From: Hyphomicrobiales bacterium
GTDB taxonomy: Bacteria > Pseudomonadota > Alphaproteobacteria > Rhizobiales > Xanthobacteraceae
DNA: 64,000 nt
NCBI GenBank assembly: GCA_003169835.1
Contig: PNAI01000050.1
Location: forward strand, 62,001-126,000
Direction: 5' to 3'
In this document: piece by piece, positions 27,103-44,515 of the stretch
Layout of the letters: every line of letters starts with the position of its first letter
How positions within the stretch are numbered: position 1 is the first letter of the stretch
Notes under the pieces: generated by a model
Database searches by the model: none
Seen by the model: only the letters and a program-made list of their open reading frames with translations
What the model was told of the DNA's origin: nothing
Made by a program: the position numbers and the translations under genes

Positions 27103-27245
27103 GCGCTCGGCCGGCAATTTTCTAACCCTTTGACACTAACTAATTTTCCCCAAGTCATTCAAAAAGTGCCGGTAAATCAGCGGAAACTCGTTGACGTAAA
27201 CGGTAATTGACGGCAACGTGCGGCAGTCGGTGCCACGTCAAAACA

Positions 27246-27266
27246 CTGACGAAACACTGACTAGAG
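27246..27266 (+). repeat. left copy of internal end repeat (TGACGAAAC type)
   Basis: ACTGACGAAACACTGACTAG lies just before the integrase ATG. The same 21 bases with one change occur at 43730-43750 in direct orientation, 41 bp inside attR. The motif contains a repeated ACTGAC half. Candidate arm-type integrase or excisionase binding site. Confidence 0.6.
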
Positions 27267-27276
27267 ATTTTTGCCC

Positions 27277-29621: not shown

Positions 29622-29722
29622 TCTGAAAAACTTTGGCACTACTTTCCCGTTTTATGGCCCCGCAAAGGCATTAGCCTGCAATCGACGCCAAATGCTTACG
29701 CGTCAAATGCAGGAAAACGGTA

Positions 29723-29941: not shown

Positions 29942-30141
29942 AACGCCCGAAAGCGTTGACGGCCCCGGCTGCTGGTGCAGACCGTGACCGTCAAGCGCAT
30001 AATCCTTTGGCGGGGATTGCGTGTAAACCTACCAAAACCCACCCCAATTTTCAAGTCGCCCGGCTGGTGCGGCGGTTTCGCCTGTCGCCGCCGGTCGCGG
30101 TCGTCGTCGCGGAGCTGGCGTTCGATGTGGTGCAACGATGA
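29938..30141 (+). CDS. small element protein of unknown function
   Basis: A 67-residue ORF that starts at GTG overlapping the previous stop (GTGA) and overlaps the next ATG by four bases. Its C-terminus, VARLVRRFRLSPPVAVVVAELAF, looks like a short HTH-like helix pair seen in small phage proteins (RRF.L....A..VAELA). Overlap on both sides supports real translation. The function is unknown. Confidence 0.6.
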   Translation: MKRPKALTAPAAGADRDRQAHNPLAGIACKPTKTHPNFQVARLVRRFRLSPPVAVVVAELAFDVVQR

Positions 30142-30551
30142 ACGTGTACGCAATCGCCGCCGACGACATGCTCGAGCGGGCCATTGCGGCCGCCGTGGCT
30201 GCCTTCCCGGATCTCGGTGCGAATGGGTTGAACCATCCGCAGGATTGGCCGATTGAGCGGGCGCATGTCGAATGTGCGATCGGGTTCTTGCGAATGTGCA
30301 TGAAGACCCAGAAGCCGAACTTCTCAAGTTATGCCATCAAACATTTTGCCGAAAAATGGGGCCGCACGGTCGGACTGGCGCCATACGTGACCAATGGCGC
30401 GGCGATTGTTGCTGCCCATGCTCTCGGCTTTGTCGTCGCAAGATACCCGACCGTTACCAAGCGCTATCCGCACGGCGGACCGAACGCTGAAGTTGGCGTT
30501 GCCCGACGCGACATCGTCCGGCTGACGCGGCCGCTCGGTTACGTGTGGTGA
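30138..30551 (+). CDS. element protein of unknown function
   Basis: A 137-residue protein in a coupled operon (ATGA overlaps on both sides). It contains the sequence CIGFLRMCMKTQKPNFSSYAIKHFAEKW-like helical part near residue 50 (MCMKTQKPNFSSYAIKHFAE) and ends with ARRDIVRLTRPLGYVW. The middle suggests a small alpha-helical DNA-associated domain, such as those encoded before primase-helicase genes in integrative elements, but no family is recognised. Codon use fits coding. Confidence 0.65.
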   Translation: MNVYAIAADDMLERAIAAAVAAFPDLGANGLNHPQDWPIERAHVECAIGFLRMCMKTQKPNFSSYAIKHFAEKWGRTVGLAPYVTNGAAIVAAHALGFVVARYPTVTKRYPHGGPNAEVGVARRDIVRLTRPLGYVW

Positions 30552-32506
30552 TGAGCATGAACATCGTCCCGATGAATGCAACCAGCGCGGCCGTCGAGAG
30601 CGACATCAACACTCGCCCGATGCATGTCACGTTCTTCCGCGACGAATACGCGAGCACACTTCGCACCCAAGACATGACGCTGCCCGCGTTGCGCGATCTG
30701 ATCCTCAAGACGACAGCGAGCACAAAAGCGGCGCTGCCTTGGCTCAAGCTCGCAAAGTTCGGCGACAAGCGGACTGAGAAGAACAGCTTACGGAACGACG
30801 CCAACGTGGACAAGATCACGGGCATTGAACTCGATGACGACAGCAAGACGACGCCACTCGATGAAGCTGTTGAAATCATGGAACGCGCAAAGCTGCGCGG
30901 TTTGCTTTACACGTCACCGAGTTCCACCGAAGCGGAGCCCAAGTCGCGCATCTTGCTTCCGACATCGTGCGACTTACCGCCCAATCAGCATGCGAAGCTG
31001 ATAGCTCGCGTCAATGGTTTGTTCGGCGGCATTTTTTCGACCGAGACATTCACGTTGAGCCAAAGCTACTACTTCGGCACCATCAATAATAACCCAGCGC
31101 ATTGCGCAGTAATCACCGACGGCGATTTCATTGATCTGCGTGGCGACCTCGACGCCGGGGCCATCGGCAAGCGAGAGCGGCCGAAGACCAACGGCACACA
31201 GTATCCCGAAGGCAATGGCGAGGGTGAGAGCTGGAGCGTGTTGCTAGGCCACATCCACGCAGGCACCGAGTTGCACACGTCATTACGAGACCTCGCATGG
31301 CGGTGTGGGCTCGCCGGCATGAATGGCGGGGCCACCGTCAATTTTCTCCGCGGCGCACTGGAGAACTCAATCGCGCCGCGCGTGGCGCGTTGGCAAAAGC
31401 GATACAATTCCATTCCTCAACTGGTCGCATCGGCCGAACAGAAAATTCCCACGCTGCCGGGCGGCACGCTGATCCAGTCCAGCGCCGAGTTCGCTAGCGG
31501 CTTCACGCCGCCCGATTACCAGATTGATGGACTCATCCAGCGGCGGTTTTTGTACGCGATGACAGGGCCGACCGGCGCCGGCAAGACGGCCGTGGTCATG
31601 CGCATCGGGGCGCACGTGGCGCTCGGGTTGCCGCTCGACGGGCGCGACGTTGAAAAAGCTCGCGTGTTGTTTTTCGCCGGCGAGAACCCCGACGACATAA
31701 GGATGCGGTGGATCAAGCTGTGCGAGGAAATGGGCCACGATCCGGCCGACATGGATGTTTTCTTTTTGCCCGGCACGCCGCCGATCTCCGATCCCGAGAT
31801 ACGCAAACGGATTGACGCCGAGGTGGCGAAGCACGGGGAGATTGGTTTGCTGATCGTGGATACTTCCGCCGCGTATTTTCGCGGTGACGACGAGAACAGC
31901 AATGCGCTACTCGGCGCGCATGCACGCATGCTGCGCTCATTCGTCAACCTGCCCGGCGGGCCGACCGTCATTGTGACGTGTCACCCGACCAAGAACCCAA
32001 GCATGGACAACTTGCTGCCGCGCGGGGGCGGCGCGTTCATTGCGGAGGTTGATGGAAATCTCGTGTGCATGAAAAACGATGCGGTCGCCACCTTACATTG
32101 GCACGGCAAGTTCCGCGGGCCGGATTTCGCGCCGATCCCGTTCCAGATTGTGCCGGGCACGACGGAAAAATTGAAGGACAGTAAGGGGCAAAAAATCTGG
32201 ACGGTGACGGCTAAGCCAATCACCGAATCCGAAGTGGCGGTGATGGAGAACACCGGCCGCGCGCAACAGGACGCGGTGCTGTTGGTGTTACAAGCCGAAC
32301 CAACGCTGTCCTTGGCGCTGATGGCTGAGAAGCTGCGCTGGTTTTACAAAACCGGCGAGCCGAACAAGTCACGGGTGCACAGCATGCTCAAGGGGCTGAT
32401 CGCTGAAAAACTAATCAAGAAAGTCAGAGGGCTATACGTTTTTACGGAAGCTGGGGAAAAGGCGGCGAAGGCGGCCAAGAAGGCGCAGGACGAGATTCCG
32501 TTTTGA
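30551..32506 (+). CDS. primase-helicase-like replication protein (RepA/RecA-type ATPase)
   Basis: The start is ATG 30551, overlapping the previous stop. The 651-residue protein has an N-terminal domain (about 15-215) resembling archaeo-eukaryotic-type primases of phages (KITGIELDDDSKTTPLDEA, LLYTSPSSTEAEPKSRILLP, LSQSYYFGTINNNP). A RepA/RecA-type ATPase domain follows (about 320-550): Walker A GPTGAGKTAVVMRIG, Walker B-type IGLLIVDTSAAYFRGDD and TVIVTCHPTKNP. A winged-helix-like tail (LMAEKLRWFYKTGEPNKSRVHSMLKGL) ends it. It probably starts and unwinds replication of the excised element. Palindromes lie just downstream. Confidence 0.78.
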   Translation: MSMNIVPMNATSAAVESDINTRPMHVTFFRDEYASTLRTQDMTLPALRDLILKTTASTKAALPWLKLAKFGDKRTEKNSLRNDANVDKITGIELDDDSKTTPLDEAVEIMERAKLRGLLYTSPSSTEAEPKSRILLPTSCDLPPNQHAKLIARVNGLFGGIFSTETFTLSQSYYFGTINNNPAHCAVITDGDFIDLRGDLDAGAIGKRERPKTNGTQYPEGNGEGESWSVLLGHIHAGTELHTSLRDLAWRCGLAGMNGGATVNFLRGALENSIAPRVARWQKRYNSIPQLVASAEQKIPTLPGGTLIQSSAEFASGFTPPDYQIDGLIQRRFLYAMTGPTGAGKTAVVMRIGAHVALGLPLDGRDVEKARVLFFAGENPDDIRMRWIKLCEEMGHDPADMDVFFLPGTPPISDPEIRKRIDAEVAKHGEIGLLIVDTSAAYFRGDDENSNALLGAHARMLRSFVNLPGGPTVIVTCHPTKNPSMDNLLPRGGGAFIAEVDGNLVCMKNDAVATLHWHGKFRGPDFAPIPFQIVPGTTEKLKDSKGQKIWTVTAKPITESEVAVMENTGRAQQDAVLLVLQAEPTLSLALMAEKLRWFYKTGEPNKSRVHSMLKGLIAEKLIKKVRGLYVFTEAGEKAAKAAKKAQDEIPF

Positions 32507-32949
32507 TCGTGGAAGGGCCTTACCACGCCGCGTTTTTGGTAAAAACGGTTGCGGAGGCAAATGCTGCAACCGCGGTGACCGTTTTAGGAAAAACGATGCG
32601 CAAAACGATATTCGAAAAAGCCGCATGGAATAAGGGGAAGTTGCCCGTTTTGCGGAAAACGCGGTGCCGGTACGCAGAATGTTTAATTCTGCGATACCGG
32701 GCGTTTCGTTTTTATACGTTTGCTAGGGCGCACGAAAAAACGATTGAGCCCTACCGCACGCCAACCCGGCCCGAGGCCGCCGCGCCTACCGCAGAAAAAG
32801 TTTGCGCCGGTTGCCGGGCTGGCCAGCGGTTTAGCAAACAGGGTACGCTGAGCCGTAAAAGGCCTATAATGCTAGACTATTATTGCGTTTGCGGGTATAC
32901 GTCAGTTGTTCGTCAGTGCGCACTAGAGGCAAAACATGCAGGCAGATAG
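32503..32949 (+). CDS. hypothetical element protein with Cys-rich end
   Basis: The longest frame starts at a TTG overlapping the previous stop; ATG 32596 in the same frame (MRKTIFEKAAWNKGK) is an alternative. The C-terminal part has KVCAGCRAGQRF...YYCVCGYTS, a CxxC/CxC pair like a small zinc ribbon. The N-terminal third coincides with the CGTTTT/AAAACG palindromes, so it may not be coding there. It overlaps the small terminase gene by 14 bases. Coding status is uncertain. Confidence 0.4.
   Translation: MIVEGPYHAAFLVKTVAEANAATAVTVLGKTMRKTIFEKAAWNKGKLPVLRKTRCRYAECLILRYRAFRFYTFARAHEKTIEPYRTPTRPEAAAPTAEKVCAGCRAGQRFSKQGTLSRKRPIMLDYYCVCGYTSVVRQCALEAKHAGR
32531..32661. repeat. three CGTTTT(T)-N3/4-(A)AAAACG palindromes, possible origin or operator
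   Basis: Three palindromes occur within 131 bp: CGTTTTTGGTAAAAACG (32531-32547), CGTTTTAGGAAAAACG (32580-32595) and CGTTTTGCGGAAAACG (32646-32661). Further CGTTTTTAT and GAAAAAACG half sites follow to about 32735. They lie just after the primase-helicase gene, where iterons of an element's replication origin would be expected. Confidence 0.6.
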
Positions 32950-33373
32950 CCCCGCGATAGCGGCCCACAAGCCGGCCGCTCGCTCAAAGATCACGAACGG
33001 TAGCGCGATCTTGGACGGTGCCGACATGCGCGGCCGCACTGCCCGCCGGTTCCGCGACGTGCTAGGCGAAATCGTATCTGACCTTGGAGGCGACCCCGCA
33101 CAATTGAGCGAGGGGCAACGTCAACTTGCGCGGCGCTGCGCAATGCTCGCGGTCGAGTGCGAGAAGATCGAAGCGCACGGCGTTGCGGGCGAGGCCATCG
33201 ACTTGGACAGCTACGGTCAGTTGACCGACCGCATCGGCCGCGCGTTCCAGCGGCTGGGGCTTAAGCGCCAAGCCCGCGACGTGACGCCGCGCCTTTCCGA
33301 ATATTTGGCTTCGATAGCGCGCCCGCCACAAGCCGCGCCAACGGCCAACGAAGCCGAGGACGTGCCGGCATGA
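32936..33373 (+). CDS. putative phage terminase small subunit
   Basis: A 145-residue, mainly helical protein that overlaps the large-subunit start by four bases (ATGA). The sequence ADMRGRTARRFRDVLGEIVSDLGGDPAQLSEGQRQLARRCAMLAVECE and IDLDSYGQLTDRIGRAFQRLGLKR fits a small terminase-like DNA-recognition protein rather than a known enzyme. It would bind the packaging site and load the large subunit. The assignment rests on position and general pattern. Confidence 0.68.
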   Translation: MQADSPAIAAHKPAARSKITNGSAILDGADMRGRTARRFRDVLGEIVSDLGGDPAQLSEGQRQLARRCAMLAVECEKIEAHGVAGEAIDLDSYGQLTDRIGRAFQRLGLKRQARDVTPRLSEYLASIARPPQAAPTANEAEDVPA

Positions 33374-34899
33374 CGCAGGCCACCACCATTGATCAGGCGC
33401 TAACGGACGCGAAGCTGCTCGGCGCCGCGCTTGGCGACGTTGCGACGTGGCAGACGTGGTGCGCAGTGCTGATTGCTGCCTTCGGCGGCCAACTCAACCG
33501 CGAACAGCGGAGTGCCTTCGCGGCCGTATCCGGTGGACGCAAGCCGCCTGATGCAATGGTCCGCGAATTGATCGCCATTGCCGGGCGGCGTTCGGGCAAG
33601 TCGAGGATGGCGGCACTGATCGCGGCTTTCATTGCCACATGCATTGACCACAGCGCCAAGCTTGCGGCCGGCGAGACTGGTTACGTGCTTGTCCTCGCAG
33701 CCAGCCGTGCGCAGGCGCAAGTCGTGTTTGCTTATGTACGCGGTTTCCTTTTGGCGTCGCCTATTTTGTCGCGTGAAATTGAATCCGAGTCGTCCGAGGA
33801 GATCAGGCTGCGCAACGGCGTTTGCATTGCCGTTCATGCCAACAACTTCCGCACGGTACGCGGCCGGACCTTGCTGGCGTGCATCTTCGATGAGTGCAGT
33901 TTTTGGCGCGACGAAACGTCTGCCAATCCCGATGTTGAAACCTATCGCGCTGTGCTGCCGGCGATGGCATCCACAAGCGGATTGCTGATTGCCATAAGTT
34001 CGCCGTACCGCAAGGGCGGGCTGATCTTTACTAAATTCCGCGACGCCTTCGGCCAGGACAATCCTGACGTGCTAGTCGTCAAGGGTGCCACGGTTCAATT
34101 CAATTCAACCATCGACGCGAGTGTGATCGCCCGCGCCCGCGAAAGCGATCCGGCCGCCGCTATGTCTGAGTGGGACGCGGAGTTTCGCAACGACATTTCG
34201 CAGCTTCTCGACGACGCATCAATCGACGTAGCCATTGACCGCTCACGGCCGCTGGAACTTCCGCCGCGTGATTTCAAGTACGAGGTTTTCGTCGATGCCA
34301 GCGCCGGTCGGCACGATGCTTTCACCATCGGCATCGCCCATCGTGAGGGCGAGCGCATCGTCGCCGATGTGATCCGTGGCAGGCGGGCGCCCTTCGACCC
34401 CGCGACTGTGGCCGCGGAATACGCGGAACTTGTCAAGCAATATCACTGCAACTTTGTCACCGGCGATAACTACGCCGGCGAGTGGGTTGCTCAAAGTTTT
34501 CGCGATTGTGGTTGCGAGTATATGCGCAGCGAGCTTGTGAAATCGCAGCTCTATCTCGAAGGCTTGCCCCACTTTATGCGGGGCGCAATTTCAATTCCAG
34601 ATATGCCCTTATTGCTCCGCGAACTACGGCTGCTTGAGCGGCGCGTGCAACGGAGCGGTAAAGATTCCGTCGACCACGGCCTCAGCGGCTCGGATGATTT
34701 CGCGAACGCGTTGTTCGGCAGCATGTGGTTGTGCCGCGACATCGCACAAGACCCGATGAATTTGTCACCACCGGAGTGGTCGTCCCAACCGCGATATGTG
34801 CCCGGTGGAATAACCGAAATCTTCAACGGTGCGAACGCAGATTTAAATCCGGCTTGTGTGAGTGCAATGTTCGCACCGCGTTCGCGTTGGACAAACTAA
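33370..34899 (+). CDS. phage terminase large subunit
   Basis: A 509-residue protein with an ATPase domain (Walker A IAGRRSGKSRMAALIA, Walker B TLLACIFDECSFW, coupling motif LLIAISSPYRKGG) and a C-terminal RNase H-like nuclease domain with acidic residues in EVFVDASAGRHD, FVTGDNYAGEW and SGSDDFANALFG. It would cut and package DNA into a capsid. No portal, protease, capsid or tail gene is found within the element, so the enzyme would have to work with a helper phage's particles, or it serves another purpose. Confidence 0.9.
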   Translation: MTQATTIDQALTDAKLLGAALGDVATWQTWCAVLIAAFGGQLNREQRSAFAAVSGGRKPPDAMVRELIAIAGRRSGKSRMAALIAAFIATCIDHSAKLAAGETGYVLVLAASRAQAQVVFAYVRGFLLASPILSREIESESSEEIRLRNGVCIAVHANNFRTVRGRTLLACIFDECSFWRDETSANPDVETYRAVLPAMASTSGLLIAISSPYRKGGLIFTKFRDAFGQDNPDVLVVKGATVQFNSTIDASVIARARESDPAAAMSEWDAEFRNDISQLLDDASIDVAIDRSRPLELPPRDFKYEVFVDASAGRHDAFTIGIAHREGERIVADVIRGRRAPFDPATVAAEYAELVKQYHCNFVTGDNYAGEWVAQSFRDCGCEYMRSELVKSQLYLEGLPHFMRGAISIPDMPLLLRELRLLERRVQRSGKDSVDHGLSGSDDFANALFGSMWLCRDIAQDPMNLSPPEWSSQPRYVPGGITEIFNGANADLNPACVSAMFAPRSRWTN

Positions 34900-34919
34900 T
34901 CAACCGAGGAGAAAAAACC

Positions 34920-35522
34920 ATGACTGACAAAATTGACGACGCCAAACGCACCGCACAAGAAGTTGAGCAACAGCTTGCGGCCGCCGCTGCAAAGCTGGCC
35001 GACGTTATCCGTAACCGCGCCGAAATTGCATTCGATGCAATCGTCGCACACGACGAAGCGGCGACAAAAAAGCTGGCCGACATTAATGAAGTCGAGGTCG
35101 CATTGCGCCGTGAACAGGTTTTGCTGGCCGCTTGCCTCGACACGGCACGCCAAAAGGTAACCAACGCAGAGCGCGAAACAGTCGCAGCAGCTGAGGCTGA
35201 ACGTGCGGCACAGCGCCAAACCCGATTTTCTGCGCTCCGCGAGCGAGCGGTCGCACTCGACCGCATCGCGACCGATCTGACTGCGGCGTTTACCGATTTT
35301 CAGAAAGAGGCGGCTGCAATTGGTCGACTTGCGACCGGCTCCTCAGCACCAAGCGTCGAACTTGTAAGTGTCGGAACCCGACGTGCACTTGCGGCACATC
35401 TTCGAGCGACCGGGTTGCCGCTGCAAGCGATACCGCCCAGTCAGCGTCTGTCCTTTGCATCACTCGCGCAGAGCTGGAGCGGCACGACCTCCGCAGACGA
35501 AAATACGGCAACTGCAGCATAA
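34920..35522 (+). CDS. coiled-coil element protein
   Basis: The start is ATG 34920 after GAGGAGAAAA, 20 bp downstream of the terminase stop; the ORF-track start is too early. The 200-residue product is a long Ala/Glu/Arg-rich coiled coil (about residues 5-140), followed by a less regular tail with TRRALAAHLRATGLPLQAIPPSQRL. No transmembrane segment or enzymatic motif is seen. It could be a scaffold- or head-related protein, but nothing specific supports this. Confidence 0.65.
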   Translation: MTDKIDDAKRTAQEVEQQLAAAAAKLADVIRNRAEIAFDAIVAHDEAATKKLADINEVEVALRREQVLLAACLDTARQKVTNAERETVAAAEAERAAQRQTRFSALRERAVALDRIATDLTAAFTDFQKEAAAIGRLATGSSAPSVELVSVGTRRALAAHLRATGLPLQAIPPSQRLSFASLAQSWSGTTSADENTATAA

Positions 35523-35535
35523 GAAGGGATCAACA

Positions 35536-35898
35536 ATGACCACGACAAAAGCAGAAGTGCTTAAACTTATCGAATCCAGTGCAGAGAAAATTCAACAACA
35601 CGGAGAGACGCGCGAGCAGGCGTATGTGAGATTCATTACGAAAACCGATGAAGGCCGCGCGCTGCACTCAGTTTACAAACGCGCACCCGGACCCGATCAC
35701 AGCCCGCCGGAAGCGCCAATCCAAAAGTGTGCCGCGCCGACGCCGGCCATGGCCAAGTTGTTGCAGAAGGCCGAGGCGATCAAAAAGGCCGAGGCGAACA
35801 TCACGATGGAGCAGGCGTTCGCCAAAACTTATCTCGATCCGAATAACCGTGATCTGGTTGAGCTGGAGAAACGCCAGCGGTTGACTGCGGCCGCTTAA
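35536..35898 (+). CDS. small element protein of unknown function
   Basis: The start is ATG 35536 (MTTTKAEVLKLIESS) after GAAGGGA; the 120-residue product ends the terminase operon. It contains REQAYVRFITKTDEGRALHSVYKRAPG near residue 25 and a C-terminal helix KAEANITMEQAFAKTYLDPNNRDLVELEK. This C-terminal pattern (F.K.Y.D..N..L...E) occurs in small phage proteins near head genes. The role is unknown. Three GC-rich hairpins follow. Confidence 0.65.
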   Translation: MTTTKAEVLKLIESSAEKIQQHGETREQAYVRFITKTDEGRALHSVYKRAPGPDHSPPEAPIQKCAAPTPAMAKLLQKAEAIKKAEANITMEQAFAKTYLDPNNRDLVELEKRQRLTAAA

Positions 35899-35906
35899 CT
35901 TGTACA

Positions 35907-36017
35907 CCGCGCGGCTTCTCCCCGCGCGGTCCGACACGGCGGTGCCCCGTCGTGTCAAGGCGGGGCTTCATTCACCCCCGCGCAGGGTGCCCGCCGGTGT
36001 CGGCATTGCCGGCGGGC
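35907..36017 (+). terminator. three consecutive GC-rich stem-loops
   Basis: CCGCGCGG/CCGCGCGG (35907-35929), GACACGGCG/CGTCGTGTC (35933-35956) and GCCCGCCGG/CCGGCGGGC (35989-36017) are successive stems of 8-9 bp. None has a T run. They follow the last gene of the packaging operon and could terminate it or protect the mRNA end. Each stem is evident from the sequence; the role is inferred. Confidence 0.5.
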
Positions 36018-36066
36018 GCTTGCGTTCCGGCGATAGCGTAGCGTGCGCGTCTGGTGCCGGGGCGAC

Positions 36067-36095
36067 ATGTCCGGTCCTCGCCCAACAACGGACAT
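36067..36095. repeat. GTCCG hairpin repeat, left of TIR gene
   Basis: ATGTCCG and CGGACAT face each other across 15 bases. A similar hairpin (GTCCGCTTT/AAAGCGGAC) lies at 37069-37093 on the other side of the TIR gene. Related GTCCGC palindromes are scattered in bradyrhizobial intergenic DNA. Confidence 0.45.
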
Positions 36096-36251
36096 TTGAG
36101 CGCGCTGCACAATCTGTCGAAAAGTGCCATTAGCCGACAATCTCGTCGATTCTGGCGAGCAGCGCGGATGGTACGATCCGACCGAGCACTTTGGCCGTCT
36201 CGGCGCCCGGACCGCTTGTGCGACGTGGGGCCGACCACCCCGGCAATAGAG

Positions 36252-36965
36252 CTAGAGAGGGGCGACCAGCTCGGCGAGCTTGGCCGCGACGTCTGCCATC
36301 GACTCTTCTGCAGTGCTCAGGCCGGTTCGAGAGGCCAGCAGGGGGCTGACTTCACGGAGAGCTTCATACGTCGTTTCGTGCACGACGGGGACGAGCCGCT
36401 CACGCGCGAGGAGTGCCGAAAGTTCTTTGTCGGCGATGCCCTCTGCTGGCAGACGGCGCAGCAGCGCAGGGGTCACCAACACGATCCCGACTCGCGAGTT
36501 CGCCAAGCCCTTGTCGATGGCGCGGAGCAACGGCACGCCGAGGCCAACATCCTTTTCGCTGAACCAGACCGAGACACCACGTGACTCAAGCAGATTGTGC
36601 AGCTCCTTGGCGGCCCCCTGCCGGTCGTCCCACGCGTGGCAGAGGAAGACGTCCCGAAGGTCAGGCAGCTTCGCTAGGTTCTCGACGCTATTGCGGACCG
36701 GTGTGAGTGCCCGCACTTCTTCAGGCGTGTACCACACGGACGAACCGGCTCGCGACCAGCGCGGCTTTGCGCTGCGGCCGGATCCGCCGCCGCTGCTCCG
36801 GCCGCCCCCGCTGCTCCCCGACGAGGAGTGGGACGGGGAGTACGACGGAGAGTACGAGGGGTACGAGTACGACCTGTAGCCGCCGTAGCGGCCGCCGCAT
36901 GCAGGGCAGTTCGCTCGACCGCTCGCTGTGCGATGGCCATATACTGGTGCTGTGCATCTAGCCAT
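36252..36965 (-). CDS. TIR-domain protein, candidate NADase immune effector
   Basis: The start is taken at MARCTAPVYGHR (36965), giving 237 residues. The N-terminus has a small Cys cluster (RCTAPVYGHRTASGRANCPACGG), then a Ser/Gly/Tyr-rich linker of about 45 residues. The TIR domain runs from about residue 103: RDVFLCHAWDDRQGAAKELHNLLESRGVSVWFSE, LGVPLLRAIDKGLANSRVGIVLVTPALL and ADKELSALLARE. The Glu in ADKEL is the likely NAD-cleaving residue. Bacterial TIR proteins often deplete NAD or make signal nucleotides on phage infection. It stands alone on the minus strand, bracketed by two hairpin repeats. The sensor partner is not obvious. Confidence 0.82.
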   Translation of the reverse strand: MARCTAPVYGHRTASGRANCPACGGRYGGYRSYSYPSYSPSYSPSHSSSGSSGGGRSSGGGSGRSAKPRWSRAGSSVWYTPEEVRALTPVRNSVENLAKLPDLRDVFLCHAWDDRQGAAKELHNLLESRGVSVWFSEKDVGLGVPLLRAIDKGLANSRVGIVLVTPALLRRLPAEGIADKELSALLARERLVPVVHETTYEALREVSPLLASRTGLSTAEESMADVAAKLAELVAPL

Positions 36966-37068
36966 GTGGCCGACGATACCGGGTACCATCGCCGCTCTCA
37001 AGCTCTAGTTGCAATGGGCCAATGTCGCCTACGGGTCATTCTCGACGGATTCGCGATGTCCGAGTTGA

Positions 37069-37093
37069 GTCCGCTTTACCCCCGAAAGCGGAC
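37069..37093. repeat. GTCCGC hairpin repeat, right of TIR gene
   Basis: GTCCGCTTT and AAAGCGGAC form a perfect 9-bp stem with a 7-base loop. It lies about 100 bp upstream of the TIR start codon, in a 370-bp gap (37002-37368) with no supported gene. It is related to the hairpin at 36067. Confidence 0.5.
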
Positions 37094-37368
37094 ATTACTT
37101 TGTTCCTTAGCGCCAACAACTGACATGACGCTGACGGCGCACTCGGAAATATAGAGGCCGCCAACTAAGGTGGCCTACTTGCCGGTGTTGAGGTCGCTAG
37201 CAATTTGCAGGTTAGCGATCCGCTGTTGGCGAGCTACCTTTGCTTCTCGATTAGCCACCGACGATCTGTGCCGCGTTTGTAGCGTGTGAGGGCGCGGCAA
37301 TACCGCGACCCCGAATTCGTGACTGCACAGAGAAGAAACGATGGCGCAGGCAAACAGCTTAGAGAGCC

Positions 37369-37497
37369 TCAGTGTTTTGTTTCTCGGAACTTGATTGTCG
37401 AGCGAATGGGTGCCGCTCTTGTAATGAAAAATCCGGCGAAGGTAAGTCCAACGATTGATGCAAATCCGATGAGCATAATCAGCGTAGCGAGGTCCAT
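37369..37497 (-). CDS. possible 42-residue single-span membrane protein
   Basis: Too short for the ORF track. From ATG 37497 the frame reads MDLATLIMLIGFASIVGLTF followed by AGFFITRAAP and a basic tail ending in FRETKH. It has one clear membrane helix with positive residues on the inner side. The ribosome site is weak (AGAG). The overlapping longer ORFs (37175-37525, 37286-37600) have no recognisable features. Small membrane proteins next to TIR genes can be effectors, but no direct evidence exists here. Confidence 0.4.
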   Translation of the reverse strand: MDLATLIMLIGFASIVGLTFAGFFITRAAPIRSTIKFRETKH

Positions 37498-37619
37498 GGC
37501 ACACTCTAAAAGTACGCAGCCGCATAGAAACTATGCCGGGCTGTCAATCGAGTGTCGAGTCGAAATCAGCATTTTTACGAATTTGGAATCGAGAAGCTGA
37601 AAACGTTAATGATCGGACA

Positions 37620-38039
37620 CTACCGGCGCCGCCTGACAGGTTCTTCTTTTTGGCACGCGGGGTCGAGACCCATCTGTACTTGAACGTCCGTCTGGTATTC
37701 GTTCATCGCGCCGCTCGCCGCGTCTACGCCCAGACCAATTACTCCTCCGACAAGAATATTGCCGGCTGTCATTGGCTGAATATTCGATGCAATAACTCCC
37801 GCACCGTCCAAATAGCATTCCTTCGTACAGCGAACGGCGACGGCTTCTTTACTCTTTTCGAGCGACACAGACGCAGGCGTGATTACCACTCGAGTGCCGA
37901 TCGACGACGATGTCAGCGTACAAGTCGCCCCTGCCACGCCAGGTGTGTTCACGCCAATGGTTTGATTTTGACCTTTAGTGAGTGTGGCGCAGGCCGCGAG
38001 CAAAAGCAGGCAGCCGAACGCGATTACAGTCTTACACAT
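37620..38039 (-). CDS. small lipoprotein of unknown function
   Basis: The start is set at MCKTVIAFGCLLLLAAC (38039); the longer ORF-track start includes 25 unlikely residues. The 139-residue precursor has a lipobox LAAC. The mature part begins ATLTKGQNQTIGVNTPGV and continues with GATCTLTSSSIGTRVVITPASVSLEKSKEAVAVRCTKECY, then a glycine-rich hydrophobic hairpin TAGNILVGGVIGLGVDAASG. This looks like a PEGA-like beta-sandwich with a glycine-zipper. Lipoproteins of this form occur in many proteobacteria; phage-borne relatives could alter the host surface. Confidence 0.7.
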   Translation of the reverse strand: MCKTVIAFGCLLLLAACATLTKGQNQTIGVNTPGVAGATCTLTSSSIGTRVVITPASVSLEKSKEAVAVRCTKECYLDGAGVIASNIQPMTAGNILVGGVIGLGVDAASGAMNEYQTDVQVQMGLDPACQKEEPVRRRR

Positions 38040-38168
38040 TATCCTATCCCCCTCATCCGCCAGCACAATCCTAGCGGGAATTCTAATGGAACGCGAGACA
38101 TTGAAATAAGCCACTGCTGAGTGTGGCAGTGGCGTAAAAGTGAACCCCGGTGAGGCGGATTCAAACAG

Positions 38169-39167
38169 CTATCGGATAGGAATATCTGACACAAAAACGC
38201 GCTCGCCCGCGTTTGATACTCCGGCTTCATTAAGTGCTGCTACGAACGCGGTGTACATCGCCCACGGATAAGGCGATGGGCCGATAATCAAACGGTCGAA
38301 AATTACGGATGCATCGAGCTCGCTGAGCGCGGGTGAGATCTTTGCGTCAAGCGGAAGCTCATAAATAATTTGGGGGACGCCACCATAAGTCACGGTGGTC
38401 GGTTTCATAAGCGGTGATTTGGACCTGTTGGGCGAATATATCGCTCGCCACTCTCTTTCTTCGCGGAAACCGTGATGTTTCAAACAGATGACGCCGGCCA
38501 CGAACATAACAAACACGACGTTCGTCACGAACTGACGATCGATGGCTTTCAAATACTCTGAGTTCTCGAGAATATTGCGCACCACGGTTTCTAGCTCAGA
38601 ATGCACCTCAGGCTCGGTCATGTAGGCGACGGGACTGAACATGATGTTAAGGGCAAGACTGGCTGCCGAAAATTGAGGGACGCGCAATACAATCCCCACG
38701 CGACCGACGCTTCCACCAAATGCCCGCCACATGGACAATCGACCAATTTTATCTTCGTCGTCTTCATGCCTGGAAATTGATGTGACGTACGTATTCAGAT
38801 GGACGTCCTGTAGCCATCCATTGAAGAGGGTGAGCGCCTCTTGAGCACACCCCGGTGAGCAGCCGTCCAGGGCGTCGAAAAAGGTTTGTTTCTTGGTTTG
38901 ATCTTTGAAAAAGCTGTTGAGGATATCGAATCCGTGTTGCACCTCTCGATAGTCAGACATGCAAGTCGCGTTGCGCATCCAGATGCGCTTGGTGTTGATA
39001 ATCTTCAATGCCGCTTCGGCTGATGTGTAGTGTACAAATCGCTTGGGGTTTAACGCGTCCTTATAGATTTCCATGCGCTCGCGCCTTGCATTGGGCATGA
39101 AGATCGCCTCCAGGCGTGTCGCCATTTCGATTTGTTCCGGAGTGAGTCCGGGCGGAGTCGGGTTCAT
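38169..39167 (-). CDS. DUF2971-family protein
   Basis: A 332-residue protein with the start at MNPTPPGLTPEQIEMAT. The DUF2971 signature is near residue 40: RFVHYTSAEAALKIINTKRIWMRNATCMSDYREVQHG. Later come CLKHHGFREEREWRAIYSP and a C-terminal IIGPSPYPWAMYTAFVAALNEAGV. The fold has been compared with ADP-ribosyltransferase-like or RES-like enzymes in some analyses, but the function is not known; many members lie in defence islands and prophages. It stands alone on the minus strand in the cargo block. Confidence 0.8.
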   Translation of the reverse strand: MNPTPPGLTPEQIEMATRLEAIFMPNARRERMEIYKDALNPKRFVHYTSAEAALKIINTKRIWMRNATCMSDYREVQHGFDILNSFFKDQTKKQTFFDALDGCSPGCAQEALTLFNGWLQDVHLNTYVTSISRHEDDEDKIGRLSMWRAFGGSVGRVGIVLRVPQFSAASLALNIMFSPVAYMTEPEVHSELETVVRNILENSEYLKAIDRQFVTNVVFVMFVAGVICLKHHGFREEREWRAIYSPNRSKSPLMKPTTVTYGGVPQIIYELPLDAKISPALSELDASVIFDRLIIGPSPYPWAMYTAFVAALNEAGVSNAGERVFVSDIPIR

Positions 39168-39496
39168 GGTGTAGTTCTTTCGGATGTCGACTATGACCGC
39201 AACATTCTGTCGATGTCGCACGGTAAAAAATATGGAATGTGCTGCTTGCTACAAGCTGAGCGCGCGAAAACATTTCGCTTGACCGCGTCATCACGACCGA
39301 GACGATGATTCTTCCTTTAGATTCAACGGCCGCGAGGTAGTTTTAGAACTGATCGGTTCCGCCTATATAGGTCCGCATGCGCGGCCGCTTCACACGAATG
39401 TACACATTGCGCGAACTCTACGAGCTCTACCGGGCAGTACCTAACTGAGACTGCATAGAGAAGAAGATCGCACCGACAAAATTGGAGAACGACATC

Positions 39497-40639
39497 ATGT
39501 TTAAACGCGCACCGGCGCATGAATTGGGCAAACGCTCTTTGTCGGACGTTGTCGTGGGCAATTGGTACTACGGTTTTAAGTGTGGCCATTGCAAAACTCT
39601 AGTCCCCGTCTTTGACGATAGGAGCGGCGGCACGCAAAAGATAAGCGTATTCGGCGGCGCGCTGGAAGCAGTTTGCCCGTTCTGCAAAGGGGCTCAGGTG
39701 TATTTGCCACAGCAGCTCGAGCAATTTCAATTCGCAGGCCCACGGAATCGGACGCAGACCTCAGATCCGAAGCTGCGGAGCGAGGTGACGGACAGCAGTG
39801 AGGATGGCACGACGGCAAGAAAGCAACCTTTCAAACAGGGTCGCCGGTACTGCATTTTCTGCGAGCGAGAGCCTCCCAAAATCAAGATGTCAGGAGAACA
39901 TCAGTTCGGCGATTGGCTAGAAGAGTTATTTCCGCGAGATGATACAACGCGCCACACACTTATCGTTGCCGATCATCCAAACGGATCAGTGAATGATCGG
40001 CCGACGGTGACGCGATTTGACCGCCAAGGTCATTCGGGCTCTATAAAACTTTCTGTCGTCTGCACACAGTGCAACAACGAATGGATGAGCACCAAGGTTG
40101 AAGAACCGGCAAAACCGATTCTCAAGCCTTTAATATTAGGAGTAACATGCGGATTGGACGGGGATATGCAGAGCATCGTAGCCACCTGGGCTGCCAAAAC
40201 GGTAATGGTGTCCGAACAGAGTCGAGAAACGCGGTCGGTCATTTTTCAGTCGGAGCGTACGTGGCTCAAAGAACATCTGACGCCGCCGATGGGCTGGTCG
40301 ATTTGGATTGGGTCGTATGGCGGAACGGAGTGGCGCGATCTGACATGCTTTATGCACCCGGCAACTATGGATGTGCCGGCGATTGGCGATCAACGGCCAG
40401 CGAAACACAATTTTGAATTTACGATTCTCGGTCTGGGCAAATTGGCGATTGTCATCATCAATACGTCGGCGCCTCACCTACATGGAAAGTTTTCGATACC
40501 GCGCCTTCGGCAAATTTGGCCAATCGTCGATGATCGCGTGACTTGGCCAACGGATTATATTGCAACCGATGCTGACCTTTGGCAGCTCACGAGTTACCCC
40601 ATCGACTTCATGCGTAAGACCCAAGATCCATCGCCTTGA
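39497..40639 (+). CDS. HNH-like zinc-cluster protein, putative nuclease
   Basis: The start is ATG 39497 (MFKRAPAHELGK) with GGAG 9 bases before; the ORF-track TTG is earlier. The 380-residue protein has an N-terminal zinc ribbon (YYGFKCGHCKTLVP...AVCPFCKGAQ) and, at about residues 120-210, a pattern like an HNH/Zn-finger nuclease core: RRYCIFCEREPPKIKMSGEHQFGDWLEELFP and VVCTQCNNEWMSTKVEE. The CxxC ... EH ... CxxCNN set fits a metal-bound treble clef. The C-terminal 150 residues are unrecognised. It could be a restriction-like effector. Low to moderate certainty about function. Confidence 0.65.
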   Translation: MFKRAPAHELGKRSLSDVVVGNWYYGFKCGHCKTLVPVFDDRSGGTQKISVFGGALEAVCPFCKGAQVYLPQQLEQFQFAGPRNRTQTSDPKLRSEVTDSSEDGTTARKQPFKQGRRYCIFCEREPPKIKMSGEHQFGDWLEELFPRDDTTRHTLIVADHPNGSVNDRPTVTRFDRQGHSGSIKLSVVCTQCNNEWMSTKVEEPAKPILKPLILGVTCGLDGDMQSIVATWAAKTVMVSEQSRETRSVIFQSERTWLKEHLTPPMGWSIWIGSYGGTEWRDLTCFMHPATMDVPAIGDQRPAKHNFEFTILGLGKLAIVIINTSAPHLHGKFSIPRLRQIWPIVDDRVTWPTDYIATDADLWQLTSYPIDFMRKTQDPSP

Positions 40640-40707
40640 CTGTCCCGATTCAAATAGTGCGACATAACATTTCGACTTACCAAATGTAGCGATTGGTCGC
40701 AGTGCCC

Positions 40708-40734
40708 CGAATCGCATTCGAATTGCCGGATGCG
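40708..40734 (+). repeat. 27-bp direct repeat, copy 1
   Basis: CGAATCGCATTCGAATTGCC plus GGATGCG. Copy 2 at 41157-41183 differs at one base. The centre contains the TTCGAA palindrome. The two copies bracket a 420-bp segment, which could be a small inserted cassette. Confidence 0.65.
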
Positions 40735-40766
40735 GCACTTTTAATCCTCCCGATCCGGTTGGGATT

Positions 40767-40784
40767 TGCGACACACGTGTCGCA
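40767..40784. promoter_or_regulatory. 8-bp inverted repeat, operator-like
   Basis: TGCGACAC-AC-GTGTCGCA is a near-continuous dyad. It lies in the non-coding region right of the HNH-like gene and could bind a dimeric regulator. No regulator is assigned. Confidence 0.4.
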
Positions 40785-40817
40785 TTTGCGAAACAAGTTT
40801 CACTTTTGCCGTGCGTC

Positions 40818-41057
40818 TCAGCGATATGTTGTGCCGGGACTGAGCGTTACCGTCGAACCTTGGGTGGCGGAAAGTGACCAGGCGAGGTTCGGCACGGGCG
40901 AGTGTGCCGGAAGATCGGGCATTGGCGGCAAGCCGATGACGCACACGCCCTGATACCGTGGCCCAGTTATGCAGCCATCAAGACCATTGTGAAGTGCCTC
41001 CACACAGCCGACGGCAACGAACGCGCCACAAGTCAGACATTGGGTTGTTCTGTTCAT
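40818..41057 (-). CDS. possible 79-residue Cys-containing protein
   Basis: The frame begins MNRTTQCLTCGAFVAVGCVE with AGAGG about 10 bases upstream, and includes further Cys residues (DGCITG, GVCVIG) followed by a Pro-rich part. The CxxC start recalls a small zinc-binding protein. No family is recognised, and it lies between the direct repeats. Confidence 0.3.
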   Translation of the reverse strand: MNRTTQCLTCGAFVAVGCVEALHNGLDGCITGPRYQGVCVIGLPPMPDLPAHSPVPNLAWSLSATQGSTVTLSPGTTYR

Positions 41058-41156
41058 TTTATTTGGCCTCTTATCTTCGAAACGCTCGAACTATACACCA
41101 TCTCGCCGCTTTCCGCGATTCCGCTACGCAAGATGTGGTGGGATGGCCTCATTCCA

Positions 41157-41183
41157 CGAATCGCGTTCGAATTGCCGGATGCG
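41157..41183 (+). repeat. 27-bp direct repeat, copy 2
   Basis: CGAATCGCGTTCGAATTGCC plus GGATGCG, one base different from 40708-40734 and in the same orientation. It lies 38 bp before the zinc-ribbon gene. Confidence 0.65.
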
Positions 41184-41221
41184 CTACGGTTCCCAAATCC
41201 TCGCCGAGTGCGAGCAGGCTG

Positions 41222-41512
41222 ATGATCCGGTTCGTCTGCGACAAGTGCGGACGCAAGGGGCAGTACCGGAAGGTAACGCTTGTCGACAAATATGGGCCTG
41301 ACGTTGCGATGCCCGACCTGCTGCACAAGATTGCCGACTGCCCGCACTGGCAGCCGATGCGCGGCGGATGCTCGGTGAGGTACGACCTTACGCAGGCAGA
41401 GCTTGATAAGGCGATGCATCGTTGGAATGCTGCAACACCACAGGGCTGTCGACCGGCAAGTGGGATTCCATTCGTTTCCACGAGACCACGAGTTGTTATA
41501 GACTTAGGGTAG
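41222..41512 (+). CDS. small zinc-ribbon protein
   Basis: The start is ATG 41222 (MIRFVCDKCGRKGQYRK); the ORF-track start lies far upstream in non-coding DNA. The 96-residue protein has CDKCGRKGQYRKVTLVDKYG, then MPDLLHKIADCPHW and a later Cys (GGCSVRYDL), a pattern typical of small proteins in rhizobial phages and elements (F.C..CGR.G.Y....L...G.....P.L...IA.C). It probably binds zinc through four Cys/His residues. The function is unknown. Confidence 0.7.
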   Translation: MIRFVCDKCGRKGQYRKVTLVDKYGPDVAMPDLLHKIADCPHWQPMRGGCSVRYDLTQAELDKAMHRWNAATPQGCRPASGIPFVSTRPRVVIDLG

Positions 41513-41607
41513 AATTGTGCACCCTGAGCCACTAGGCGTATTTGGAACTACCCGGTAGTTCGTGCAAGCAAAGTCTGGTTCAACGTTGTCGAGAGCACGA
41601 GGTCAGA

Positions 41608-41856
41608 ATGATAGATGTAAAGCAAGCTGTGAACGCAGCAATTGCATACGTAAATGATTTTCCAAGCCTCTTATCGACTGCGAATGTTCGCCTTGAAGAG
41701 ACCGAACTGAGTGATACTGAAACATATTGGAATATCACTCTCAGCTTTATCGAGAACGCGTTGATGGGGACTCGAACATATCGAATATTCAAAATTGATG
41801 CCGAGACTGGGGTCGTGAAGTCAATGAAAGCTCGCAACATATTTAAGCAGGCCTAG
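41608..41856 (+). CDS. PepSY-like small protein, partner of PIN protein
   Basis: An 82-residue protein starting MIDVKQAVNAAIAYVNDFPS after GAGGTCAGA. The pattern of one helix followed by four strands (RLEETELSDTETYWNITLSFI, TRTYRIFKIDAETGVVKSMK) is PepSY-like. The stop is three bases before the GTG of the PIN-domain gene, so the two must be co-translated. It may hold or localise the PIN protein, as an antitoxin-like partner. The region is AT-rich compared with the rest of the element. Confidence 0.7.
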   Translation: MIDVKQAVNAAIAYVNDFPSLLSTANVRLEETELSDTETYWNITLSFIENALMGTRTYRIFKIDAETGVVKSMKARNIFKQA

Positions 41857-41859
41857 CGC

Positions 41860-42348
41860 GTGTATCCGCACGATTTATTGGAAAAATATAAGGACAAAGG
41901 TGTTCTAATAGACACTAACTTGCTTCTGCTGATTGCGGTTGGCACCTATAACACTGCTAGGATTCTATCGTTCAAAAGAACGCAGCGATATACGTTAGAA
42001 GACTTTTTACTAATGCGAAGAATCCTGGAGCATTTTCAGCGCCGCGTTACGACCCCGAACATTCTCACAGAGGTCGATAACATCGCGCGACAATTGCCGG
42101 AGGACGAGCACGAGTCGATAGCGGCAGTTTTGACCCAACTCATATCAAATTCTTTTGAAGTGTACGTAGAGTCTCGAACTGCGGTACAGACACATTTGTA
42201 TCCTGCGATTGGTTTGACAGATTGCGTAACGATGAGTTCGGCAGAGGAGGTGTTAGTTCTGACTGACGATTTTGAACTATCAAATAGATTGGCTAGCGTG
42301 GGTCGCGATGCACTCAACATAAATCACATTAGGCATTTTGATCTGTGA
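41860..42348 (+). CDS. PIN-domain-like protein, putative RNase effector
   Basis: A 162-residue protein starting at GTG 41860 (YPHDLLEKYKDKGVLIDTNLLLL). GVLIDTNLLLLIAVG carries the first PIN aspartate; FLLMRRILEHFQRRVTTPNILTEVDNIARQ supplies the expected Glu after a strand (TPNILTEV); LTDCVTMSSAEEVLVLTDDFELSNRL supplies the C-terminal Asp residues. All four acidic positions seem present, so it is probably an active metal-dependent RNase. It is translationally linked to the PepSY-like gene, which suggests a toxin-antitoxin or abortive-infection pair. Confidence 0.75.
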   Translation: MYPHDLLEKYKDKGVLIDTNLLLLIAVGTYNTARILSFKRTQRYTLEDFLLMRRILEHFQRRVTTPNILTEVDNIARQLPEDEHESIAAVLTQLISNSFEVYVESRTAVQTHLYPAIGLTDCVTMSSAEEVLVLTDDFELSNRLASVGRDALNINHIRHFDL

Positions 42349-42487
42349 GCAGTTCTGCAATGGCGAGGCCGGCACGTGGCAACCATGAGATTAGGCCGCT
42401 GACTTGACGGTCTCCACATTGCCGCAACTCTTGACGAGGCGAAGGAGGAACTGGCGCCGCGAAGGAAAAGTGCCGGGGGAATAGTCA

Positions 42488-42958
42488 ATGGGTCAAAACC
42501 ACAGAACTGTTGATGCATTGGCGGTCGAGCTACGACAGGTTACGACAGGCATAGGGAACCAGCGCCGACTGCCAGACGCTTTCCGCAAGTTGTTCGGTGG
42601 TGCGCATGAAGACGCGGGCGTAATAGCTCGTCCAGGAACCCCGAGGTTCAAGCTTGCACGAGGAGTTTCGTACCTCTCAGCATTGCGAAGTTGGAGAAGG
42701 AAGCGAAAACGGGCGGCGGAAGCTCGTATCAGGCGCAAGGCGCAAAAAATAGAAAAACTCCTGCGAAAAATACCGAAGTACAAGAACAAGGAATTTATCT
42801 GCATCACTGATTACGACAGGTGTCTCAACCATCGCGGACCAAATTCGACGATCTGCGCGATGGCGTTCATCATCTGCATGGGTCGGCGAGCCATTCCGCT
42901 TCTTAAGCAACTTGGAAAAGCCGCTAAAACGGCTGCATCTGGAGAGGCACTTTCGTAA
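42488..42958 (+). CDS. basic protein of unknown function
   Basis: A 156-residue frame with GGGGGAATAG before the ATG. It is rich in Arg/Lys (RSWRRKRKRAAEARIRRKAQKIEKLLRK at about 68-95) and ends with EFICITDYDRCLNHRGPNSTICAMAFIICMGR. No domain is recognised. Two overlapping minus-strand ORFs of similar length make coding status uncertain, although the plus frame has the better start. Confidence 0.42.
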   Translation: MGQNHRTVDALAVELRQVTTGIGNQRRLPDAFRKLFGGAHEDAGVIARPGTPRFKLARGVSYLSALRSWRRKRKRAAEARIRRKAQKIEKLLRKIPKYKNKEFICITDYDRCLNHRGPNSTICAMAFIICMGRRAIPLLKQLGKAAKTAASGEALS

Positions 42959-43089
42959 GCTAAGGAAGGCCAACATGATGGCCCGCCGTTTTCAGCGCCG
43001 CGCTCTTCGGACCTCAGTTATGCCGCCGCTCCCGCCCTCGGCGTGGTCGCCGGTGCCGCGGCATCACGGCTGACGGGCGCGCTTTTTAT

Positions 43090-43713
43090 TTAGACGATGA
43101 GACTTGCAACCTTCCGCCATTCTGACGGGATGGCGTTCCATCTCTTAGGCCAGCGCGCTCTCACAAGCGGCGAAGGGTGGGCGGAAGTGAACAAGGTCAA
43201 CCCGGAAGCTACAAGGTGTGATCTAGCCTCGGCTGCTTTCTGCCCGACCAGCACGACCACGCGTAGCCTAGGAAGCAAATGGATCAATTCGTTCGCGTGG
43301 CTCGCACCGTCCAGCAATTCCGATCCCGTCACCGTGCGTGTGCCGTTCCACCCCGGGATAACATTCCACAGGATGGTCAGCTCGCGCGGCAACCCGGCTT
43401 GACGCATGAAATTGAAAGTGGCCTCGGCGGTCGGATCGTCATTGTTGCGGCTGATAAAACCTGAGCCCGATCGCTTGCCGCTGCCTTCCTCGGTCGTCAT
43501 CGGGCCGGGCTTCTCGAACAGGAACAGCGCCCGCGCCTCCACACCGCCGTCGAGCGGGTCAAAATCAGGAACTTGCAAGCCTGGCCGACGCAGCTTTTCG
43601 GCGAAGGTCTTCAATTGGACCATGTGCGGAAGGCCGAGCATGGCGCGCCGCCGTTGGCGCACACCCGCGTCGCGCATCGAACGCGGCCAGTCGTCGGCTT
43701 GGGGCAACGTCAT
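43090..43713 (-). CDS. uracil-DNA glycosylase-superfamily-like protein
   Basis: The start is MTLPQADDWPRSMRD (43713); the longer ORF runs into tRNA-Cys. The 207-residue protein has FLFEKPGPMT as motif-1-like region, ILWNVIPGWNG with the conserved Asn strand, LRVVVLVGQKAAEA as central strand, and FTSAHPSPLVRARWP as the HPSPL motif of the UDG fold. It lacks the FeS Cys set of family 4/5. Possible roles are base excision in phage-modified DNA or protection of the element. It is the last gene before attR and faces left. Confidence 0.75.
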   Translation of the reverse strand: MTLPQADDWPRSMRDAGVRQRRRAMLGLPHMVQLKTFAEKLRRPGLQVPDFDPLDGGVEARALFLFEKPGPMTTEEGSGKRSGSGFISRNNDDPTAEATFNFMRQAGLPRELTILWNVIPGWNGTRTVTGSELLDGASHANELIHLLPRLRVVVLVGQKAAEARSHLVASGLTLFTSAHPSPLVRARWPKRWNAIPSEWRKVASLIV

Positions 43714-43729
43714 TGGGCGGTTGAAGTGT

Positions 43730-43750
43730 ACTGACGAAACGCTGACTAGA
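43730..43750 (+). repeat. right copy of internal end repeat (TGACGAAAC type)
   Basis: ACTGACGAAACGCTGACTAG, one base different from 27246-27266 and in the same orientation, placed between the UDG-like gene start and attR. Candidate integrase arm site. Confidence 0.6.
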
Positions 43751-43790
43751 TTTTTTTGTCTTTTGCGGTAGCTGCTAAGTCCTTGATATT

Positions 43791-43835
43791 GTGGAGGCCA
43801 CGGCCGGAATTGAACCGGCGTACCCGGTTTTGCAG
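43791..43835. repeat. attachment site attR within tRNA-Cys
   Basis: Exact 45-bp copy of 27058-27102, here forming the 3' half of the intact tRNA-Cys. The element therefore occupies 27058/27102 to about 43790, some 16.7 kb. Confidence 0.92.
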
Positions 43836-43865
43836 ACCGGTGCGTAACCACTCCGCCACGTGGCC
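43792..43865 (-). tRNA. tRNA-Cys (anticodon GCA), integration target
   Basis: The minus strand reads GGCCACGTGGCGGAGTGGTT, an anticodon loop CTGCAAA, T arm GCCGG-TTCAATT-CCGGC and CGTGGCC with discriminator T and an encoded CCA. Acceptor and T stems pair fully. The 3' half was supplied by the element on integration; the 5' half is chromosomal. Confidence 0.95.
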
Positions 43866-43959: not shown

Positions 43960-44088
43960 CTATGGCCGTTCCTGATCGGTTAGTGCCTGGTCGAATGCCT
44001 TTTTGACTACTTGCGTCGCCCGCTCGTTCGTGTTGCTGAACAGATGTCCGTACACGCCGACGGTGATTGTCGGCGACCCTTTTTCACT
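43960..44088 (-). pseudogene. tyrosine-integrase C-terminal remnant
   Basis: The end of the listed minus ORF reads SPTITVGVYGHLFSNTNERA followed by a short helix and stop, like the C-terminus of tyrosine recombinases with the nucleophilic Tyr in VYGHLF. The rest of the ORF to 44331 shows no integrase similarity. It sits on the 5' side of tRNA-Cys and is a relic of a different element. The 430 bp to the pilin gene (44089-44515) hold no other recognisable gene. Confidence 0.5.
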
Positions 44089-44515
44089 GCGGCCCGAAAT
44101 ACGCACGGGCAAAAAACCACGCACAAATTCGAATACATTCTGGCGTTGGGCTCGCCGCTTAAGTCCGAGGTCGCAAAAAAGAAAATTCTCGACAAGCTGC
44201 ACGTACCGGGTGGCGTGGCATACGTCAGCTACGGTACGTTCGAAGTCGCGACGTTTGCGCAGACAGCGGCTGATCCTGGCTGCGTCGGCAAACCATGCGA
44301 TGGCAACACTGTCGAGATCGATAACGGCCACGCCGCGCCAAAACGCCGACGTTGATTGCGGGCTATGCCGACAGGAAACACACCGACAAACATTTCATCG
44401 ATGGTTGGTTCAATCCTGACGACAAAGGCAGCTTCACCAAAGATGGATTGATCGTGCTTGAAGATCGCCTCTCGCGCACATGGAGAAAATACGATGTGGC
44501 AGGCAGCAGCTTTTA

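Follow-up and report, generated by a model that had tools for sequence, protein, structure and literature searches.

An integrated element and its cargo in a Hyphomicrobiales genome

We analyzed a 64,000-nucleotide stretch of DNA, here called the window, from a Hyphomicrobiales bacterium (assembly GCA_003169835.1, contig PNAI01000050.1, positions 62,001 to 126,000). A 16.8-kb integrated element occupies positions 27058-43835 of the window and ends on both sides in identical 45-bp direct repeats. Between its terminase genes and its right end lies a block of cargo, including a TIR gene, a DUF2971 gene, and a PepSY-like/PIN gene pair, which an original prediction had described as a candidate anti-phage or conflict island. 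The defense-type, variable character of this cargo is upheld here; the idea of a single combination is not, and the genes are better seen as separate units. Judging from sequence comparisons, the block is probably a cargo bay holding several unrelated, separately acquired units, with a predicted anti-phage function.

The left repeat (attL, 27058-27102, forward strand) is identical to the 3' end of a tRNA-Cys gene and matches exactly the right repeat (attR, 43791-43835, forward strand), which forms the 3' end of tRNA-Cys 43792-43865 on the reverse strand; tRNA was the sole match in an Rfam scan. The backbone genes all lie on the forward strand. They begin with a tyrosine integrase with Arm-DNA-bind_3 and Phage_integrase domains (27277-28815; Pfam, 3e-15 and 7e-14; PHROG integrase, 8e-47), an AlpA/excisionase-like regulator (29723-29941; phrog_66, E=4.7e-7), and a replicative helicase-primase of the AAA_25 type (30545-32506; Pfam, 1e-22; PHROG, 6e-22). 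A small-terminase-like gene (32936-33373), recognized by its blastp pattern across related elements, most of which keep it, and assigned its putative function by position, adjoins the terminase large subunit gene (TerL, 33370-34899; phrog_2, E=3e-31). Two further backbone genes follow, one encoding a coiled-coil protein (34920-35522). No portal or capsid gene was recognized among the backbone genes of the element, where a divergent capsid gene could be missed. With attachment repeats at a tRNA gene, its own integrase, and terminase as the only recognized particle function, the element appears to have the layout of a phage satellite, presumably mobilized by a helper phage. In general layout it would resemble phage-inducible chromosomal islands (PICIs) and capsid-forming PICIs (cf-PICIs), by its size, tRNA-type attachment, AlpA-like regulator, and terminase genes.

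Related elements keep the backbone and differ in cargo

TerL relatives were found in 38 of the 391 genomes of the host's family, and none turned up in a scan of the viral contigs. We fetched 40 stretches around TerL relatives for comparison, and the backbone order of the window element recurs in most of them. Clear direct repeats bound 18 of these related elements, which range in size from 8.6 to 16.8 kb; in 16 of the 18 the repeats are 45-58 bp long and lie within tRNA-Lys, -His, -Met, -Phe, -Asn, or -Cys genes, and in the other two they are shorter. The host genome itself carries a second satellite of the same family (L130; G000:C47, 2935-19756), 16.8 kb long with 27-bp repeats. Its primase is 64% identical to that of the window element and its two post-TerL genes are 63% (34920-35522) and 57% (35536-35898) identical, with quite different cargo. 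Another relative, L148, in which the second of these genes is 32% identical, occupies the same tRNA-Cys site and has different cargo again. The cargo proteins of the window are absent from the related elements, save for a 54-residue stretch of a zinc-ribbon open reading frame (ORF) in L133. Since the backbone is kept while the cargo differs, the block is a cassette bay and not one system. This agrees with the earlier expectation that satellite cargo varies as cassettes.

A PADLOC scan covered 123 post-TerL proteins from the related elements, with 114 host genes from the same stretches as a control. The matches include a type II restriction-modification pair (L155), a type II methyltransferase (L152), a Mrr-type enzyme together with a PD-T7-3-like protein (L154), PD-Lambda-2_C (L131), PD-T4-7 (L143), PDC-S59 (L149), and a weak SIR2 match (L157), and a CBASS-type 2TM effector family is also found among the cargo of relatives. 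The host-gene control had no restriction enzymes and no type II methyltransferases, a contrast that is qualitative only.

Within the window, unrelated genes in both orientations do lie between the TerL operon and attR, as had been predicted. The block had been given limits of 36252 and 42958; cargo is present there, but it runs on to attR, because several genes had been missed, including a uracil-DNA-glycosylase (UDG)-like gene at 43090-43713. A lipoprotein gene (37620-38039) and a zinc-ribbon ORF (41222-41512) had likewise gone unnamed. The TIR gene stands apart from the remaining cargo in composition (66% versus 52% GC) and is separated by 655 nt from the lipoprotein gene. Elsewhere, the TIR gene, the PIN pair, and the DUF2971 gene are found apart from one another.

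The TIR gene is part of a compact mobile unit

The TIR gene (36252-36965, reverse strand) encodes a protein of 237 amino acids, and its identification is firm: it matches Pfam TIR_2 (E=1.6e-15) and, over its full length, the PADLOC ThsB model PDLC00424 (E=3e-127). Its start had been placed at 37001; homologs begin at residue 13 of that ORF, so the gene in fact starts with the ATG at 36965. The N-terminus is zinc-knuckle-like (MARCTAPvxGHR...CPAC), with an invariant C4-H11-C20-C23 motif. No fusion of this N-terminal motif to another protein turned up in the fetched loci. A linker rich in Tyr, Ser, Pro, and Gly follows, modeled with very low confidence and probably disordered. In the TIR domain, E181 is invariant among homologs. 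The nearest solved folds are those of BtpA/TcpB, PdTIR, BtTir, and the NAD+-consuming AbTir, so that fold and catalytic glutamate are those of a TIR NADase, an activity that is predicted for this protein. In the open literature, searched mostly without subscription journals, we found no paper on this TIR family.

When the window was compared by blastn with the TIR loci that had been fetched, 95 matches resulted, none of which passes the edges of a unit at 36194-37016 (reverse strand). This unit of about 820 bp consists of promoter, coding sequence, and a 3' tail of about 58 nt, with edges about 50 nt 5' of the start codon and 58 nt 3' of the stop. Across phyla its DNA is about 76-89% identical. 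Against Rubrobacter, an 815-bp match is 84% identical, and the noncoding edges reach 91% (5') and 93% (3'). A promoter-like site, TTGAGA-N17-TATCGT (36973-37001, reverse strand), lies only 7 nt before the ATG, so the message would be leaderless. A scan for sites of this type found no more than in shuffled sequence, and the support for this one is its conservation in other loci. The 3' flank in the window folds no better than shuffled sequence (z=+0.87).

The distribution of the TIR gene is wide. A search of one genome per species yielded 332 relatives, the best 80 of which, at 65-88% identity, span Paenibacillus, Bacillus, Rubrobacter, Geobacteraceae, Bacteroidota, Verrucomicrobia, and many Proteobacteria. 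Among sampled genomes of the host's phylum, 7 of 249 carry it. The gene is found on 346 plasmids when any match is counted and on 196 at 60% identity or above. It also occurs in 20 viral contigs, with integrase and tail tape-measure genes among those nearby. Across 80 loci, no gene family recurs regularly as a neighbor, and the loci share no flanking repeats. In eight loci (L050, L053, L063, L080, L082, L084, L088, and L173), a DUF2188-type small gene lies directly upstream of the TIR gene; these mostly alphaproteobacterial loci also have divergent genes for a helix-turn-helix (HTH) regulator and an ImmA/IrrE protease, and it is possible that they hold a regulated version of the unit.

A conserved PepSY-like/PIN pair

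Near the right end of the cargo, two genes on the forward strand encode a PepSY-like protein, the predicted antitoxin (41608-41856), and a PIN-domain protein, a predicted VapC-like RNase toxin (41860-42348). The name "PepSY-PIN" had been given to this pair, and its parts fared differently: the conserved pairing and the PIN fold are supported, but Pfam support is lacking, as the PepSY match of the partner is weak (E=0.002, below the cutoff) and the PIN Pfam family does not match the 41860-42348 protein. No VapB family matched the partner. In the PIN protein, D18, E71, D121, and D137 are invariant among relatives, and its model (pLDDT 86) finds mostly PIN/VapC structures as best solved matches, none of them below E=0.001. 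The PIN gene occurs in 8 other genomes among 297 of the order, and in all 8 the small partner, matched by sequence or gene position, lies directly upstream, mostly overlapping; in viral contigs it was detected by sequence in 2 of 5. The natural reading is a conserved two-gene module of toxin-antitoxin type, in which toxicity and its neutralization are predicted.

In relatives within the order, the pair stands isolated between unrelated, mostly housekeeping genes. It is also present on four cyanobacterial plasmids, on three of which (L189, L190, and L191) it lies directly before a DUF1156 gene, with DUF499 nearby in L190 and L192. On these plasmids the pair, with DUF1156 and DUF499, may be part of a larger defense locus.

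Other cargo genes and flanking features

The DUF2971 gene (38169-39221, reverse strand, with a possible start at ATG 39167) was correctly recognized, as its Pfam match is above the cutoff (E=6.3e-6). Homologs at 31-36% identity occur on five alphaproteobacterial plasmids and weaker ones on four more; the literature on DUF2971 was uninformative. The label "HNH-like" for the protein at 39482-40639 (forward strand) could not be confirmed. Zinc-ligand motifs (CxxC...EH...CxxCN..WM) are present, but no HNH profile matched in Pfam, NCBIfam, or PADLOC, and PHROG gave only families of unknown function. Remote relatives of this zinc-motif protein, a member of no assigned family, are encoded by four further genomes of the order and also elsewhere in the host genome. 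The remaining genes are a small predicted lipoprotein (37620-38039, reverse strand; phrog_6823, E=2.7e-10), whose lipobox LLLLAAC was read directly; the small zinc-ribbon ORF with a CxxC motif (41222-41512, forward strand), which is 57% identical over 54 amino acids in L133; and the uracil-DNA-glycosylase superfamily protein (reverse strand; Pfam UDG, E=1.3e-5, above the cutoff). The ORF at 42488-42958 is a doubtful gene, uncalled by the codon model (score under 8) and with no homolog found. Viral contigs were also scanned for the lipoprotein, DUF2971, and zinc-motif genes, with no matches.

A 30-bp sequence occurs twice (40705-40734 and 41154-41183, 93% identical) in the gap that separates the PIN pair from the zinc-motif gene and adjoins a terminator-like hairpin; it is perhaps the remnant of a duplication or a cassette junction. 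An ORF at 43960-44331, beyond tRNA-Cys on the host side, ends in an integrase-like C-terminus (VGVYGHLF...), which suggests the remains of another element at the same tRNA-Cys.

Favored interpretation and alternatives

We favor, with a probability of roughly two in three, the interpretation that a phage-satellite-type element has its cargo bay here, filled with separate conflict-type units, of which the orphan TIR gene is the main one. The element would insert into tRNA-Cys by its tyrosine recombinase and replicate with its own helicase-primase. Because it carries both a small terminase subunit (TerS) and TerL, it would be packaged in helper-phage particles, both helper and mobilization being assumed. 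The zinc-knuckle and linker N-terminus of the TIR protein most likely senses a phage-made or damaged component; the triggered TIR domain would then oligomerize, its Glu181 pocket would consume NAD+, and the loss of NAD+ would stop the cell before a phage matures, so that rival phages would be blocked. From the observed fold, the invariant glutamate, and the single-gene distribution on mobile DNA without ThsA, we infer the NADase activity, its trigger, and the resulting protection. The small PepSY-like protein most likely restrains the VapC-like RNase as a toxin-antitoxin pair, and the DUF2971, zinc-motif, lipoprotein, and UDG-like genes are probably accessory conflict or exclusion genes.

Several observations weigh against this interpretation. 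Conservation in the TIR family is far above the usual level for defense TIRs, and the family has no recurring partner, which leaves room for a housekeeping or selfish role. Next to its catalytic Glu, the TcpB/PdTIR group has a conserved Trp (WP..EL), a position taken by Ile in this protein (IADKEL). The host-gene control of the PADLOC scan cross-matched the models mad2, mad3, PDC-S47, AriA, and DpdA, and a TerL without a recognizable capsid gene could mean a decayed prophage.

A more specific version, which we hold only tentatively, treats the TIR unit as a self-contained, partner-free abortive-infection module of about 820 bp, made up of a leaderless-type promoter, a zinc-knuckle sensor, a TIR NADase, and a tail. 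Plasmids, phages, satellites, and perhaps integrons would carry such a module from phylum to phylum, and it would have been filed as ThsB.

The same compactness, own promoter, sharp edges, and cross-phylum spread would also fit a selfish or addictive single-gene hitch-hiker that travels in integron-like fashion or on a transposon and brings no benefit against phages. On a conjugative Klebsiella plasmid the TIR gene neighbors tet(A) and a Tn3-family transposase, and another TIR gene is on a 9.9-kb Acinetobacter tet(39) plasmid; both cases, and the attC-like hairpins 30-39 nt upstream of the TIR start codon in L023, L028, and L068, point the same way. Over all loci, however, attC-like hairpins numbered 82 against 106 in shuffled sequence, and a stricter version of the search found none; as the count does not exceed that in shuffled sequence, we do not claim an integron-cassette origin. 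The unit is without transposase or terminal repeat, and its presence in phage contigs and a satellite bay is in keeping with a role in conflict, so a pure hitch-hiker seems unlikely. We consider it quite unlikely that the element is a decayed prophage whose cargo genes are ordinary morons. TerL is present, and the relative L129 also has prohead protease and major capsid genes, but the short backbone recurs in many relatives, whose integrase, primase, and terminase genes are open and whose repeats match, which argues that the reduced layout was inherited.

Very unlikely, in our view, is that the TIR protein is a Thoeris ThsB whose cyclic ADP-ribose product would signal to a ThsA effector encoded at another site in the same cell. 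In favor are the full-length PDLC00424 match and one Sinorhizobium plasmid in which a SIR2 gene and further TIR genes lie about 3 kb from the TIR gene. Among the 46 genomes searched, however, the ThsA STALD model matched in three and ThsA_Macro in none above the cutoff; neither model was found in the host genome. For the host, a metagenome-assembled genome about 83% complete, this absence alone is weak evidence for that reason. Together with the lack of a conserved neighbor in the 80 TIR loci, it speaks against Thoeris. The label fails for this unit because ThsA, the second defining part, is absent, and naming such a TIR protein ThsB is likely a database mislabel. Should it prove to be an NADase, the protein would nonetheless act like a known kind of TIR effector. 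In the same sense, it was right that no named system could be recognized, insofar as no known system is complete here. Finally, the TIR, DUF2971, zinc-motif, and PIN pair genes sit together in the window, but they lie in both orientations with large gaps and each family occurs without the others in the fetched loci (the sole overlap being a remote DUF2971, 22% identical, in L092), making one multigene defense system highly improbable.

Relation to known systems and significance

In the part of the literature consulted, P4-like satellites are described as integrated elements that encode an integrase and replication functions of their own and have anti-phage genes in a variable bay (PMC9122126). 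The window element is like them in these respects, its anti-phage genes being predicted ones; it differs in having its own TerS-TerL beside the bay, and its hosts and genes are unrelated. The TIR protein belongs by profile to the ThsB family (PDLC00424), and it differs from Thoeris as a single gene without ThsA. With AbTir, BtTir, PdTIR, and TcpB, its nearest solved relatives, it shares the TIR fold and the catalytic Glu, in contrast to its zinc knuckle, its linker, and the replaced Trp. The PIN gene resembles VapBC in lying directly downstream of a small partner gene and in its four acidic residues, whereas the partner is PepSY-like and not a recognized VapB, and the PIN domain falls below Pfam detection.

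The satellite bay itself adds a new member to a known kind. More surprising is the TIR unit, whose protein keeps 58-91% identity across the fetched loci, which range from Actinobacteria to Bacteroidota and Firmicutes, a degree of conservation that is unusual among immunity genes. This work also corrects what is likely a mislabel, a ThsB that has no ThsA, and shows the PepSY-like/PIN pair to be a real two-gene module. In this terminase-carrying satellite family with a readable cargo bay, new defense genes can be sought by position.

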